Under the pieces are notes generated by a model. It was not told where the DNA came from and did no database searches. It was given only the letters and a program-made list of their open reading frames with translations. Shown one piece after another: positions 54,497 to 58,034 of a stretch of 64,000 nucleotides of DNA. The number at the start of each line of letters is the position of its first letter. Position 1 is the stretch's first letter. This DNA comes from Rhodohalobacter barkolensis (GTDB lineage: Bacteria > Bacteroidota > Rhodothermia > Balneolales > Balneolaceae). The position numbers and the translations under genes are program-made. The stretch spans positions 310,001-374,000 of the forward strand of contig NZ_PISP01000001.1 in the NCBI RefSeq assembly GCF_002834295.1, in the 5' to 3' direction.

Positions 54497-54754
54497 TTCA
54501 AAATAGTTTTATTTTTTGGTACCGCTTCCAAAAGGTAACGATTTTTTGCCTGTTTTCATTTGTATGAGTTGAAATTTTTAGCTGGCAAAAAGATAGGATT
54601 AGGACGAGTGCTTATATTAAACGTAAGAAGTTGTACTACATTTAGATGTGGCGATTTGAACTCTTTTCATAGTTTTTTGGAATAATTGGAACATTATCAT
54701 CTGATCTTCCTTTATATAGATGAACACACGTTAAATAAAGAGTACACAAAAATT

Positions 54755-55081
54755 ATGCTAAGGAAAAAATCAACAATACTGGTTGCACTTCTACTATTTA
54801 TAGGAGTTGGATGTTCTTCTCCGGGAAGTTTATCATCAGAAGAAATTACAAATGTTGCCGGAGTCGTAGTTACTGAAGATTATGAGAGGGTTGCAAATGC
54901 TGAGGTACATTTTGTGGATGATGACTTAAGAACCACCACATCCGAAGAAGGTACATTTACACTGTATGAAGTAAGTGTAGGAAGTCAAAATGTGACCATT
55001 AATTCTGAATCTCATGGTACATTTGAAAAAAATGTAGAGATTGTAAATGAAGGAACCAGGCTCGAGATCAAACTTGATTGA
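54755..55081 (+). CDS. Lipoprotein with carboxypeptidase regulatory-like domain
   Basis: 108 residues. Start at 54755; a longer upstream frame is not protein-like. Lipobox FIGVGC (Cys20). The rest is a single CarboxypepD_reg/peptidase-associated beta sandwich: VAGVVVTEDYERVANAEVHF, then EGTFTLYEVSVGSQNVTI. Such domains usually sit at the N-terminus of TonB-dependent receptors; here it stands alone. Own terminator. Confidence 0.85.
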   Translation: MLRKKSTILVALLLFIGVGCSSPGSLSSEEITNVAGVVVTEDYERVANAEVHFVDDDLRTTTSEEGTFTLYEVSVGSQNVTINSESHGTFEKNVEIVNEGTRLEIKLD

Positions 55082-55161: not shown

Positions 55162-55464
55162 TCAACCGAAATTCCACGTCACACCGCGGCCAATCTCCGG
55201 ATCGGGAAATTCCCAACTCACCGCACCCTGATCGCAGGCATACATACAGGTTCCACACTCAATGCAGTCTTCCACCTGAAAATGGACCTTACCATTTTCA
55301 TCCTTGGTATAGCAGTTTGCAGGGCACACATAGGTAGTGCAATGATGGGGGCAGGTTGAATTGCAAATATCTGTATCAACCTTAATATGCGGTTTGATTT
55401 CAGATTTAGCTTGGTTACGATAGCTAACCAATCCAAGTCGTTCGGGTAAAGTCAGGAGTTTCAT
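55162..55464 (-). CDS. fixX: Ferredoxin-like protein FixX
   Basis: 100 residues. Ferredoxin-like partner of the ETF-quinone oxidoreductase: Cys residues CNSTCPHHCTTYVCPANC and CIECGTCMYAC at spacing suitable for at least one 4Fe-4S cluster. The N-terminal leader is unlike a signal. Last gene of the etfB-etfA-fixC-fixX group; separated from fixC by a 198-bp gap with a repeat. Confidence 0.9.
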   Translation of the reverse strand: MKLLTLPERLGLVSYRNQAKSEIKPHIKVDTDICNSTCPHHCTTYVCPANCYTKDENGKVHFQVEDCIECGTCMYACDQGAVSWEFPDPEIGRGVTWNFG

Positions 55465-55540
55465 GTGTATTTGAATTGTGTTAATTGATATTCATTAAAA
55501 CTGAGTGAAATCGAAAAAGTGCGACATAATTAAAATAAAA

Positions 55541-55652
55541 GTTGGCAGTTGGGAGTCTGCAGTCGGCAATTTTTTTTCTACTATTCTATTTATAAAAACC
55601 TTAAGCATTAAGTAATAATTAAACTGCCAATTGCTAACTGCAAATTGTCAAC
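55541..55652. repeat. Inverted pair of 7-bp repeat arrays
   Basis: Left arm 55541-55568: four adjacent 7-mers of consensus GTYGGCA (for example GTTGGCA, GTCTGCA). Right arm 55622-55652, read on the reverse strand: four 7-mers of consensus RTTDGCA (for example GTTGACA, GTTAGCA). Arms face each other across about 50 bp, which itself contains TTAAGCA and TTAAGTA. The right arm begins 11 bp past the fixC stop. Confidence 0.85.
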
Positions 55653-55662
55653 TAATAAACAG

Positions 55663-56988
55663 CTACAGTGCTTTCGCTCCTTTTGCTCCAATCTTAACGA
55701 GATCCCAGTACGAAGCGTGTTTTTTAACGGAATCACTGAACATGTTTCTTGCCTTCTTGGTCGGCTCGTTCTTAATGCTAAAGAAATTCCGTCCGAAATC
55801 ACAGAGCAGGTTTGGCATCTTGTCTATCATAAATGGATCGTGCAACAGATGTACGGCATCCTGAAAATTATTGATGTCTTTCATCACATAGCTGTCTTCC
55901 AACGTATCCTGATAGGCTTTCATTGCAGATTCTCCAAAGTCGCCTTTCTCTTTTGCTTTTGTGATGGCCTCGGCCGCCAAAATTCCGGATCGCATCGCGT
56001 AATCCATTCCCTGGATCGCTTTGCCGGCATTCATTAGCAGATTGGCTGCTTCGCCGCAAACCATCAGGCCGGCTTTGTAAAGCTTTTCAGGCATCACACG
56101 CTTATCACCGGATGACACAACGTGAGCAGAGTATTCAACAACCTCACCGCCACGAATCATATCAGCAACAGCAGGGTGTTTTTTAAAATGATTGAGGATA
56201 TCGTAAGGTGTTTGCTCTTTTTCACGCAGATCTTTCAATCCCAAAACCAATCCGATTGAGACAGTGTCTTTATTGGTGTAGAGAAATCCACCGCCTTCAA
56301 CACCGTTCGTGGCGTGCCCGACAAACTCATTACTCATTCCGCTTTTTCCATTTAGCTGAAAACGGTTCTCAAGAACATCCTGATCAAACCGGATAATCTC
56401 CTTGACACCGGTCAGCATGTGGTCGGCGGGGACGTATTTATCCTGGAGGCCGACCTGCCGTGTGAGAAGATTGTTAACTCCCTCAGCCAAAATCACAGAG
56501 TCTGCATAAAACTTATCTTCACCGGTTCGAATACCTACTACTTTACCATCTTCTTCAAGTACTTCCTCAACAAGGATATTGGGTGCCACGAAAGAGTCCA
56601 TCGCGAAATCACTCTCTGCAATAGCTTCCTCAACTTTTCCGGCGAGCCATTTATCAAATTTGGATCGCAGTACAACCACACCGGTGTAAGGAGGTTCGTT
56701 GAAATGGGACGATTTAAAATCTACTGAGAATGATGACTGTTCATCCATAAAGGTGAGCCTGCGGTGATTGATAAATCGATCCCATCCGCTATCGTCTTCT
56801 TCCCAGTAATTTGGAACCAATTTATTCAAATCGTTTCCCCACAACACACCACCGGATACATTCTTTGATCCCGGAAATTCTCCCTTTTCAATGAGAAGAA
56901 ATTTCATGTTGTTTTTGGCGAGCGTCATGGCAGCGGCAAGCCCGGCCACACCGGCTCCTACGATGATACAGTCAAATTTTTCGTCCAT
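55663..56988 (-). CDS. fixC: ETF-quinone oxidoreductase-type flavoprotein FixC
   Basis: 441 residues. FAD-binding Rossmann motif CIIVGAGVAGLAAAM (about 7-21), a second dinucleotide region GVVVLRSKFDKWL, FixC hallmark GSKNVSGGVLWG, C-terminal AGKAIQGMDYAMRSGI. It lacks the iron-sulfur part that in mitochondrial ETF-QO is fused; this role is supplied by separate FixX. It passes electrons from reduced ETF to quinone. Follows etfA on the same strand after a 68-bp gap containing a 7-bp repeat. Confidence 0.95.
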   Translation of the reverse strand: MDEKFDCIIVGAGVAGLAAAMTLAKNNMKFLLIEKGEFPGSKNVSGGVLWGNDLNKLVPNYWEEDDSGWDRFINHRRLTFMDEQSSFSVDFKSSHFNEPPYTGVVVLRSKFDKWLAGKVEEAIAESDFAMDSFVAPNILVEEVLEEDGKVVGIRTGEDKFYADSVILAEGVNNLLTRQVGLQDKYVPADHMLTGVKEIIRFDQDVLENRFQLNGKSGMSNEFVGHATNGVEGGGFLYTNKDTVSIGLVLGLKDLREKEQTPYDILNHFKKHPAVADMIRGGEVVEYSAHVVSSGDKRVMPEKLYKAGLMVCGEAANLLMNAGKAIQGMDYAMRSGILAAEAITKAKEKGDFGESAMKAYQDTLEDSYVMKDINNFQDAVHLLHDPFMIDKMPNLLCDFGRNFFSIKNEPTKKARNMFSDSVKKHASYWDLVKIGAKGAKAL

Positions 56989-57003
56989 AGAAATTGAGTA
57001 GTT

Positions 57004-57058
57004 GGTATTAAGTATAAGGTATCAGGTATTTACTACCTGATACTTGCGACTTGATACT
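57004..57058. repeat. Second inverted 7-bp repeat array with perfect hairpin
   Basis: Left arm 57004-57031: GGTATTA, AGTATAA and two further units of consensus RGTATYA. Right arm 57031-57058 read in reverse: AGTATCA, AGTCGCA and relatives. Centre: GTATCAGGTA (57019-57028) pairs perfectly with TACCTGATAC (57034-57043), loop of 5. The right arm starts at the etfA stop codon. Confidence 0.85.
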
Positions 57059-58034
57059 AATTCTGTTTGATTTTTTTCAGTTCTTCGATGAATGGAGGCA
57101 GGATTTTGTAAAGGTCTCCAACTAATCCGTAATCTGCAATATCGAAGATAGGAGCATCCGGATCTTTGTTGATGGCTACAATGACTTTACTGTTCGCCAT
57201 ACCTGCAACGTGCTGAATTGCACCGGAAATAGCCACACCAATATAGAGTTGAGGGGAAACCACTTTTCCGGTTTGACCAATCTGTAGACTTGGGTCATAA
57301 TCTCCGGCTTCTGTTAACGCTCTTGAAGCTCCGATACCGGCATTCAGTACAGAAGCGAGTTCAGAAATCAGGTTTCGTCCTTCTTCATCTTTTACGCCGC
57401 GACCGGCAGCAACTACAACTTCTGCTTCAGAAAGATCAACTCTGTCGGACGACGAGCTGATAATCTCTTTCAGAGTTATTTGAAGCTCTTCATCACTAAA
57501 ATTGAAATCGATCGCTTCAATGTTTGCGTTGCTCTCTTTCTCAACGACATCATAAGAGCCGGATCGAACAGAGATAATAACCGGTGAGCCCGATGCTTCT
57601 ACTGAAGAAATAATCTTTGAAGCCATTACCGGACGTTTGCCCTTCACACCGTTGTCCGTCAGATCAAATTCAGACATGTCACTGAGAGCAGCTGTTTGTT
57701 GATTCGCTGCCAAGGCTCCAAGTACATCTTTTGAACTCTCCGTAGAAGGAAAAGCAACCACTTTTGGGTTGATTTGAGAAACTGCTGTAGAGAGAGCTTT
57801 TAGAACCGGAGTATTCAGGTGGTTTTTAAAGATTGGATTTTCGATCGTGTAGATCTCGTCCGGACCGTAATTTTTAAGTTGTTCTGCGATTTCAGAAGCT
57901 TTCGAGTCAATCACTAAAGCCGCAGATTTCATTCCGTTGTTTGATGCAAGCTCATTGCACCGTGAAAGAACCTCAAGAGAGGAGCGTTTAATTTTTCCGT
58001 CGTTAACTGAGATGACTGTTAATAGAGTACTCAT
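57057..58034 (-). CDS. etfA: Electron transfer flavoprotein subunit alpha (FixB type)
   Basis: 325 residues. N-terminal domain plus C-terminal FAD-binding domain with VVVAAGRGVKDEEGRN, QIGQTGKVVSPQLYIGVAIS, then AIQHVAGM and NKDPDAPIFDIADYGLVGDL; this is the canonical FAD-site order. Encoded 19 bp after etfB. Carries electrons from acyl-CoA dehydrogenases to FixC. Gene ends inside a repeat array. Confidence 0.95.
   Translation of the reverse strand: MSTLLTVISVNDGKIKRSSLEVLSRCNELASNNGMKSAALVIDSKASEIAEQLKNYGPDEIYTIENPIFKNHLNTPVLKALSTAVSQINPKVVAFPSTESSKDVLGALAANQQTAALSDMSEFDLTDNGVKGKRPVMASKIISSVEASGSPVIISVRSGSYDVVEKESNANIEAIDFNFSDEELQITLKEIISSSSDRVDLSEAEVVVAAGRGVKDEEGRNLISELASVLNAGIGASRALTEAGDYDPSLQIGQTGKVVSPQLYIGVAISGAIQHVAGMANSKVIVAINKDPDAPIFDIADYGLVGDLYKILPPFIEELKKIKQN

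Follow-up and report, generated by a model that had tools for sequence, protein, structure and literature searches.

Facing heptamer arms in the fixC-fixX gap of Rhodohalobacter barkolensis: a probable gene-less member of an IVP-linked class of small mobile elements

The DNA analysed here (the window) is a stretch of 64,000 nucleotides from Rhodohalobacter barkolensis, which contains the gene run etfB-etfA-fixC-fixX on the minus strand (Table 1). Placed after the fixC stop codon, two arrays of four heptamers face each other, reading AGTTGGC AGTTGGG AGTCTGC AGTCGGC on the plus strand and AGTTGAC AATTTGC AGTTAGC AATTGGC on the minus strand. The first-pass annotation had described them (55541-55652) as lying in an operon gap, and they are indeed located between fixC and fixX. 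No IVP sequence was found in this gap (locus L052), and the element is therefore classed as a gene-less copy and not as a full member of the element class described below, although it has the two facing, mutually matching tandem 7-/8-mer arms that define the class. A search of the organism's own DNA with the element returned no match beyond the element itself. The possible relic listed in Table 1 resembles, by eye and with uncertainty, the 3' arm of an IVP element in the fixC-fixX gap of the relative G019. A second gene-less pair (57002-57062), absent from the earlier finding, is tighter than the fixC-fixX pair, has a different unit and fills the etfA-fixC gap. Just past fixX, a small lipoprotein-like ORF (54686-55081, plus strand) has no confident NCBIfam name.

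Table 1. Genes and repeat features around the fixC-fixX element (window coordinates)
Feature	Position	Strand	Basis
fixX-like ferredoxin gene, downstream of element	55162..55464	-	
GTGAAAA-type repeat, possibly the relic of an earlier arm	55503..55521	+	by eye, uncertain
Plus-strand heptamer arm, four AGTTGGC-type units	55540..55568	+	sequence, pattern match, lag-7 scan
A+T-rich loop, 57 nt, gene-free, weak third 7-mer run inside	55569..55625	.	sequence
Opposing heptamer arm, four AGTTGGC-type units	55626..55653	-	sequence, pattern match
fixC-like FAD oxidoreductase gene, upstream of element	55663..56988	-	
Second gene-less pair, first arm, GGTATYA type, etfA-fixC gap	57002..57029	+	lag-7 scan
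Second pair, opposing arm, overlapping etfA end	57034..57060	-	lag-7 scan
etfA-like gene	57057..58034	-	

Pattern, lag-7 and shuffle tests all place the two arrays beyond chance. Each arm departs from (ARTYDGC)x4 by one mismatch in 28, while five was the lowest number found on either strand of ten Markov sequences of 64 kb; the pattern was derived from the arrays themselves, and this comparison is thus post hoc. A test free of any pattern agrees with this: lag-7 runs with at least 16 matches in 21 occur twice in the window and in none of the ten Markov sequences, and at nine other lags the window contains no such run. The lag-7 score of the fixC-fixX gap (16/21) was reached by 0/200 shuffles, and its inverted match of 17 compares with a maximum of 12 in 30 shuffles. 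The third short run that had been noticed between the arms is weak (11/14 at lag 7, p ~0.02). Complementarity between the arms amounts to 76% over 25 nt; folded as RNA, the element is only mildly more stable than its composition would give (z -1.86), and the whole gap has a z of 0.09.

An intrinsic terminator, consisting of a short GC stem-loop and a T run, would explain an inverted repeat past a stop codon with a T-rich stretch beyond the 3' arm on the operon strand. However, the terminator scan found no terminator-like site in the fixC-fixX gap, the loop is 57 nt long, and fixX follows in the same operon. The candidate was rejected and is very improbable, in agreement with the initial remark that this is not a normal terminator. 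The second pair contains one terminator-like site (57043-57019), with 1.9 expected by chance across the scanned region. A structured RNA of an Rfam family was likewise rejected, the sole Rfam match in the window being one tRNA, with no match to rRNA.

A whole-genome search for 7-mer arrays detected the AGTTGGC-type unit at few further places in the 3.6 Mb of the host genome. Facing arrays at C1:617172 (plus strand) and C1:617659 (minus strand) bracket a gene for a 125-aa protein of the four-helix-bundle family TIGR02436, which has weak similarity to Avd and solved relatives 2gsc and 2rld. Because of these facing arrays, all such genes were surveyed: the host genome has 11 matches to PF05635, the family of the IVP four-helix-bundle proteins. 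As judged by eye, most of them are bracketed by facing heptamer arrays, and the unit differs from one to the next. A 464 kb sample (the window plus 20 further stretches of the genome) contains four facing heptamer pairs, two of them in the etf-fix operon. For plain runs in this sample, the lag-7 count (4) is not above those at lags 6 and 12; for inverted repeats at a stricter limit, the counts are 4 at lag 7, 4 at lag 14, 1 at lag 6 and 0 at the others. Long one-sided arrays are found at C3:77160-77229 (about nine AGTTGGC-type units) and C1:951786-951855 (about ten AATCGGC units), the latter with further heptamer runs of other units nearby.

The host genome (G000) also has 17 Y1_Tnp (REP-type) matches, and REP/BIME palindromes moved by a Y1 (RAYT) transposase resemble the fixC-fixX element in being both intergenic and palindromic. 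Unlike IVP genes, however, the 12 testable Y1 loci lack a lag-7 array, with scores of 9 to 13 of 21 on either side, and a REP/RAYT element was rejected on this ground as a scarcely credible source. Several Y1 genes of G000 have inverted flanks of their own, without heptamers. No PF00078 match, and hence no reverse transcriptase, was found in the host genome, which led to the rejection of a reverse-transcriptase-linked element.

IVP/S23 genes are widespread, and two sets of loci were compiled to describe their flanks. The genus set consists of 80 IVP loci out of a longer list of matches, with the gene located in 79 and both flanks available in 77; the cross-phylum set consists of 80 named loci from many phyla, 78 with both flanks. 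Arrays of 7- or 8-mers on at least one side, at one common limit for both sets, adjoin 52/77 IVP genes in the genus (1/70 controls) and 52/77 across phyla (10/71 controls), in loci drawn mainly from the top of score-ordered lists and not at random; 25/77 loci in each set have no array at this limit. The genus flanks show a sharp period of 7, with mean best scores (of 28) of 18.9 and 18.4; in outer control flanks 400 bp further out the means are 12.2 and 11.7. Scores of at least 20/28 are reached by 42% and 36% of the flanks and by 0/71 controls.

Units vary between elements, and the two arms of one element match. In the genus, flanks of one gene have a mean match of 21.9, compared to 13.8 for flanks of different genes, while own and mismatched pairs of control flanks are alike (12.6 and 12.8). 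The cross-phylum set, with periods of 7 and 8, gives 22.6 for true and 13.0 for mismatched pairs. The true partner flank ranks first in 24/77 genus loci, as units are shared within a clade. The 5' arm is rich in G, with G exceeding C in 32/36 genus and 37/42 cross-phylum arms, and C exceeds G in the 3' arm (36/38 and 38/43, respectively). Within the genus, units and IVP clades go together (r -0.35, 0/2000 permutations; -0.27 without positional orthologues), and across phyla this link is not significant (230/2000 permutations). The unit of the fixC-fixX element is at most one change away from those of L044, L100, L124, L127, L136 and L140, which belong to a single IVP clade, and from that of one outsider to this clade, L149. 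L100 occupies the fixC-fixX gap of the relative G007. Judged by unit sequence, AGTTGGC ties the gene-less copy to the IVP clade of L044.

Many IVP genes of the genus (e.g., L062, L065 and L072) are preceded by a leader in which TTGTAAG is followed, after about 20 nt, by GGTTCATAC. TTGTAAG is present within 150 nt upstream of 32/79 genus IVP genes and once in control stretches; the leader is perhaps a promoter. A phage origin of IVP was rejected, since a tblastn search with one IVP query against 50,697 phage records gave no match.

The same operon gaps were then compared in relatives. A search of 40 genomes recovered fixC in 36; 30 loci were obtained, 24 of which are from the genus, including the window. 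The comparison of the fixC-fixX gap covers 23 gaps; L067, at a contig end, was left out, and L071 is open-ended. Seven of the 23 (L053, L062 to L066 and L072) contain IVP coding sequence, either whole, broken or as a remnant, and the remaining gaps have gene-less arrays of several units or no array. Lag 7 is significant at p <=0.005 in 13/23 gaps, the best window in L062 and L075 being an A+T-rich leader and not an arm. In the etfA-fixC gap, lag-7 arrays occur in 17/24 loci, with at most two at any other lag except 14; the pair is present in most relatives of the genus, with other units. Mapping on the fixC tree, with unit labels assigned by eye, gives at least 11 changes of unit for the etfA-fixC gap and at least 8 changes of state for the fixC-fixX gap. 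Base-by-base conservation is absent in the relatives.

The mode of variation is visible in G001 and G022, which have genes 96-97% identical and differ completely in both gaps, loops as well as arms; therefore, whole elements were exchanged. Presence and absence in relatives are seen for the fixC-fixX gap as a whole, not at the exact junction of the R. barkolensis copy. Elsewhere in G000, two genes have the element L042 between them, which G019 lacks and G009 has in decayed form; either state could be ancestral. Interspersed hairpins of a second kind, with GTCCCGACA...TGTCGGGAT cores, lie beside or within heptamer arrays in L061, L069, L071 and L045, the first three of these being in fixC-fixX and etfA-fixC gaps.

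The persistence of facing arrays in the etfA-fixC gap of most of the genus (lag 7 in 17/24) indicates a structure kept while its sequence changes. Such persistence would be expected of a selected intercistronic RNA hairpin, e.g., one tuning fixX against fixC by mRNA processing, with its origin being secondary. Against this proposal, which we consider unlikely, the fixC-fixX gap is short and array-free in some relatives (L055 and L059), the folding exceeds only mildly the stability expected from base composition, and the same arms flank IVP genes at unrelated places.

Cyanobacterial plasmids provide several sites for one element. Among the 39 plasmid records with an IVP match, one AGTCAGG-armed IVP element occurs at three unrelated sites (L324 and L328; L320; L322, L327 and L335), each with empty counterparts whose flanks are ~90-99% identical. 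The Nostoc plasmids L319 and L322 are reciprocal, in that each carries an IVP element of a different unit where the gap of the other is empty. At the first AGTCAGG site, GTAAT flanks the insert on either side and is present as a single copy in the empty site; across the plasmid sites the target duplication is 5 bp, 3 bp or none, or ~16 bp are lost, and hence no target rule is established. At site B-C of L319, the empty site also lacks ~40 nt past the 3' arm. In L342, both ends are kept and the gene is shortened, while L339 and L340 share one gene-less element with the same AGTCAGG arms in different surroundings; by analogy, the latter is the plasmid parallel of the fixC-fixX copy. The gene-less AGTCAGG-armed element, with inner hairpins, is seen at unrelated Nostoc plasmid sites (L339, L340 and L341). 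Within the first 12 plasmid IVP loci, L325 is array-free on both sides (10/21 each), and several others have a one-sided array at the scanned distance.

These observations bear on the initial suggestion of a short degenerate array evolving by unit copying, of which the repeat nature holds and the mechanism is unsupported as the main account. The matched two-arm structure, the arms flanking IVP genes elsewhere, the presence or absence at sites and the whole-element differences all argue against it. In its strongest form, the heptamers would grow in place by replication slippage and the arms be kept alike by hairpin-templated correction, without any mobility. The degeneracy of the arms and their varying unit numbers are in line with this explanation, as is the variable heptamer number of the Coxiella 23S intervening sequence (IVS) in the available portion of its description (PMC4990558). 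However, relatives with genes 96-97% identical differ in loops as well as arms, the arrays are associated with IVP genes, and the same element is found at unrelated plasmid sites that also exist in an empty form. In-place slippage is accordingly improbable as the origin of the element, whereas unit copying may still alter the copy number inside one arm, as is reported for the Coxiella 23S IVS (PMC4990558, in part).

The fixC-fixX element is thus probably a gene-less member, either decayed or non-autonomous, of a class of small IVP-linked mobile elements. This reading draws on the anatomy, the matching of arms, presence and absence, turnover, the multi-site plasmid element and the gene-less copies with the same arms, and also on the association of arrays with IVP genes, the link of unit to IVP clade in the genus, the IVP sequence in the fixC-fixX gap of relatives and a prediction borne out in the distant family of Luteimonas. 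Full copies are ~430-550 bp long and comprise a 5' arm built of tandem 7-mers or, in some cases, 8-mers, the IVP gene and a reverse-complement 3' arm. Such elements sit between genes, often at or just past a stop codon, and copies lose their gene, decay or give way to other elements. The IVP proteins, for which no activity is known to us, may bind the arms and aid movement in cis or in trans, and the R. barkolensis copy would either rely on helpers elsewhere or be a relic. RNase III may cut the paired arms in mRNA, as it does in the intervening sequences of 23S rRNA, and such cutting would make an insertion inside an operon tolerable.

Several points stand against the mobile-element reading: the fixC-fixX copy itself has no IVP gene and no assigned empty site or target duplication, the plasmid target duplications are inconsistent (5 bp, 3 bp, none, or ~16 bp loss), about a third of the IVP loci are array-free at the limit used, and the cross-phylum set shows no significant link of unit to protein. 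Furthermore, the turnover could equally result from recombination between strains that exchanges arms.

The IVP gene and the inverted ends tie the element class to the 23S intervening sequences. That of Coxiella burnetii contains an S23p/IVP gene, inverted ends that form a stem and tandem 5' heptamers, is excised by RNase III and has been termed selfish, as far as the consulted portion of PMC4990558 relates; the same portion reports that the Xanthomonas IVP relative is a pentamer. The class shares with it the IVP-family gene, the inverted ends and the tandem heptamers, but the R. barkolensis copy is gene-less and lies between the protein genes fixC and fixX, not in an rRNA gene. IVP is likewise carried by some rRNA insertions of CPR bacteria (PMC11270868, in part). 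As short gene-less inverted repeats between genes, the copies also resemble MITEs and REP elements, and the relation of the gene-less Nostoc copies to IVP elements is that of MITEs to transposons. Unlike in MITEs and REP elements, the ends are tandem arrays of element-specific sequence, no transposase partner was found and target duplication is inconsistent.

Intergenic heptamer arrays have been reported separately from Xanthomonas, Nostoc, Beggiatoaceae and Geobacter, without a common explanation. The GGGAATC repeats of Xanthomonas and the GGGGA(C/T)T repeats of Nostoc are reported, in the portion considered, to form G-quadruplexes and to be generally unassociated with mobile elements (Rehm 2015, PMC4692102). 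They share intergenic heptamer arrays, some in facing pairs, with the R. barkolensis element, but its unit is AGTTGGC. The TAACTGA repeats of Beggiatoaceae, cyanobacteria and Bacteroidetes are equally intergenic, and some are missing in close relatives; in the portion of that paper used here, they are mostly direct and precede start codons, with one inverted set in 170 (MacGregor 2015, PMC4679880), in contrast to the inverted arms of the fixC-fixX element. Heptamer arrays are also recorded for the genome of Geobacter metallireducens (PMC2700814, in part). No link of IVP to heptamer arrays appears in the examined portions of PMC4679880, PMC4692102 and PMC2700814, and no published link of IVP genes with facing heptamer arrays between protein genes was recognised in searches of open-licence papers. 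One element class joining these reports would provide a testable role for IVP, would suggest where the intervening sequences of 23S rRNA come from, and would explain why certain operon gaps change completely between close relatives. In its widest form, the proposal is of a phylum-spanning mobile class without recognisable transposase and with element-specific facing heptamer ends, in which IVP would be the element's own arm-binding helper, gene-less copies would move with IVP help, the 23S rRNA intervening sequences would be the rRNA branch, and the long-noted excess of bacterial intergenic heptamers would largely be its debris; taken jointly, these statements have an even chance of being correct.

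A prediction follows from the IVP element L199 of Luteimonas, which carries GGGAATC arms. GGGAATC is the unit of the unexplained Xanthomonas repeats (PMC4692102, in part), and the prediction was that heptamers of this type would stand beside IVP genes in the Luteimonas family. An IVP match is present in 44/99 genomes of this family, and correctly oriented GGGAATC arrays were found upstream in 15/30 and downstream in 15/30 IVP loci. These loci include L280, the same gene as L199 and thus the source of the prediction, without which the count is 14/29 on each side. The wrong orientation occurs in 0/30 loci, and the outer flanks have one array upstream and none downstream. Most of the other loci of the family have, as judged by eye, arrays of related units.
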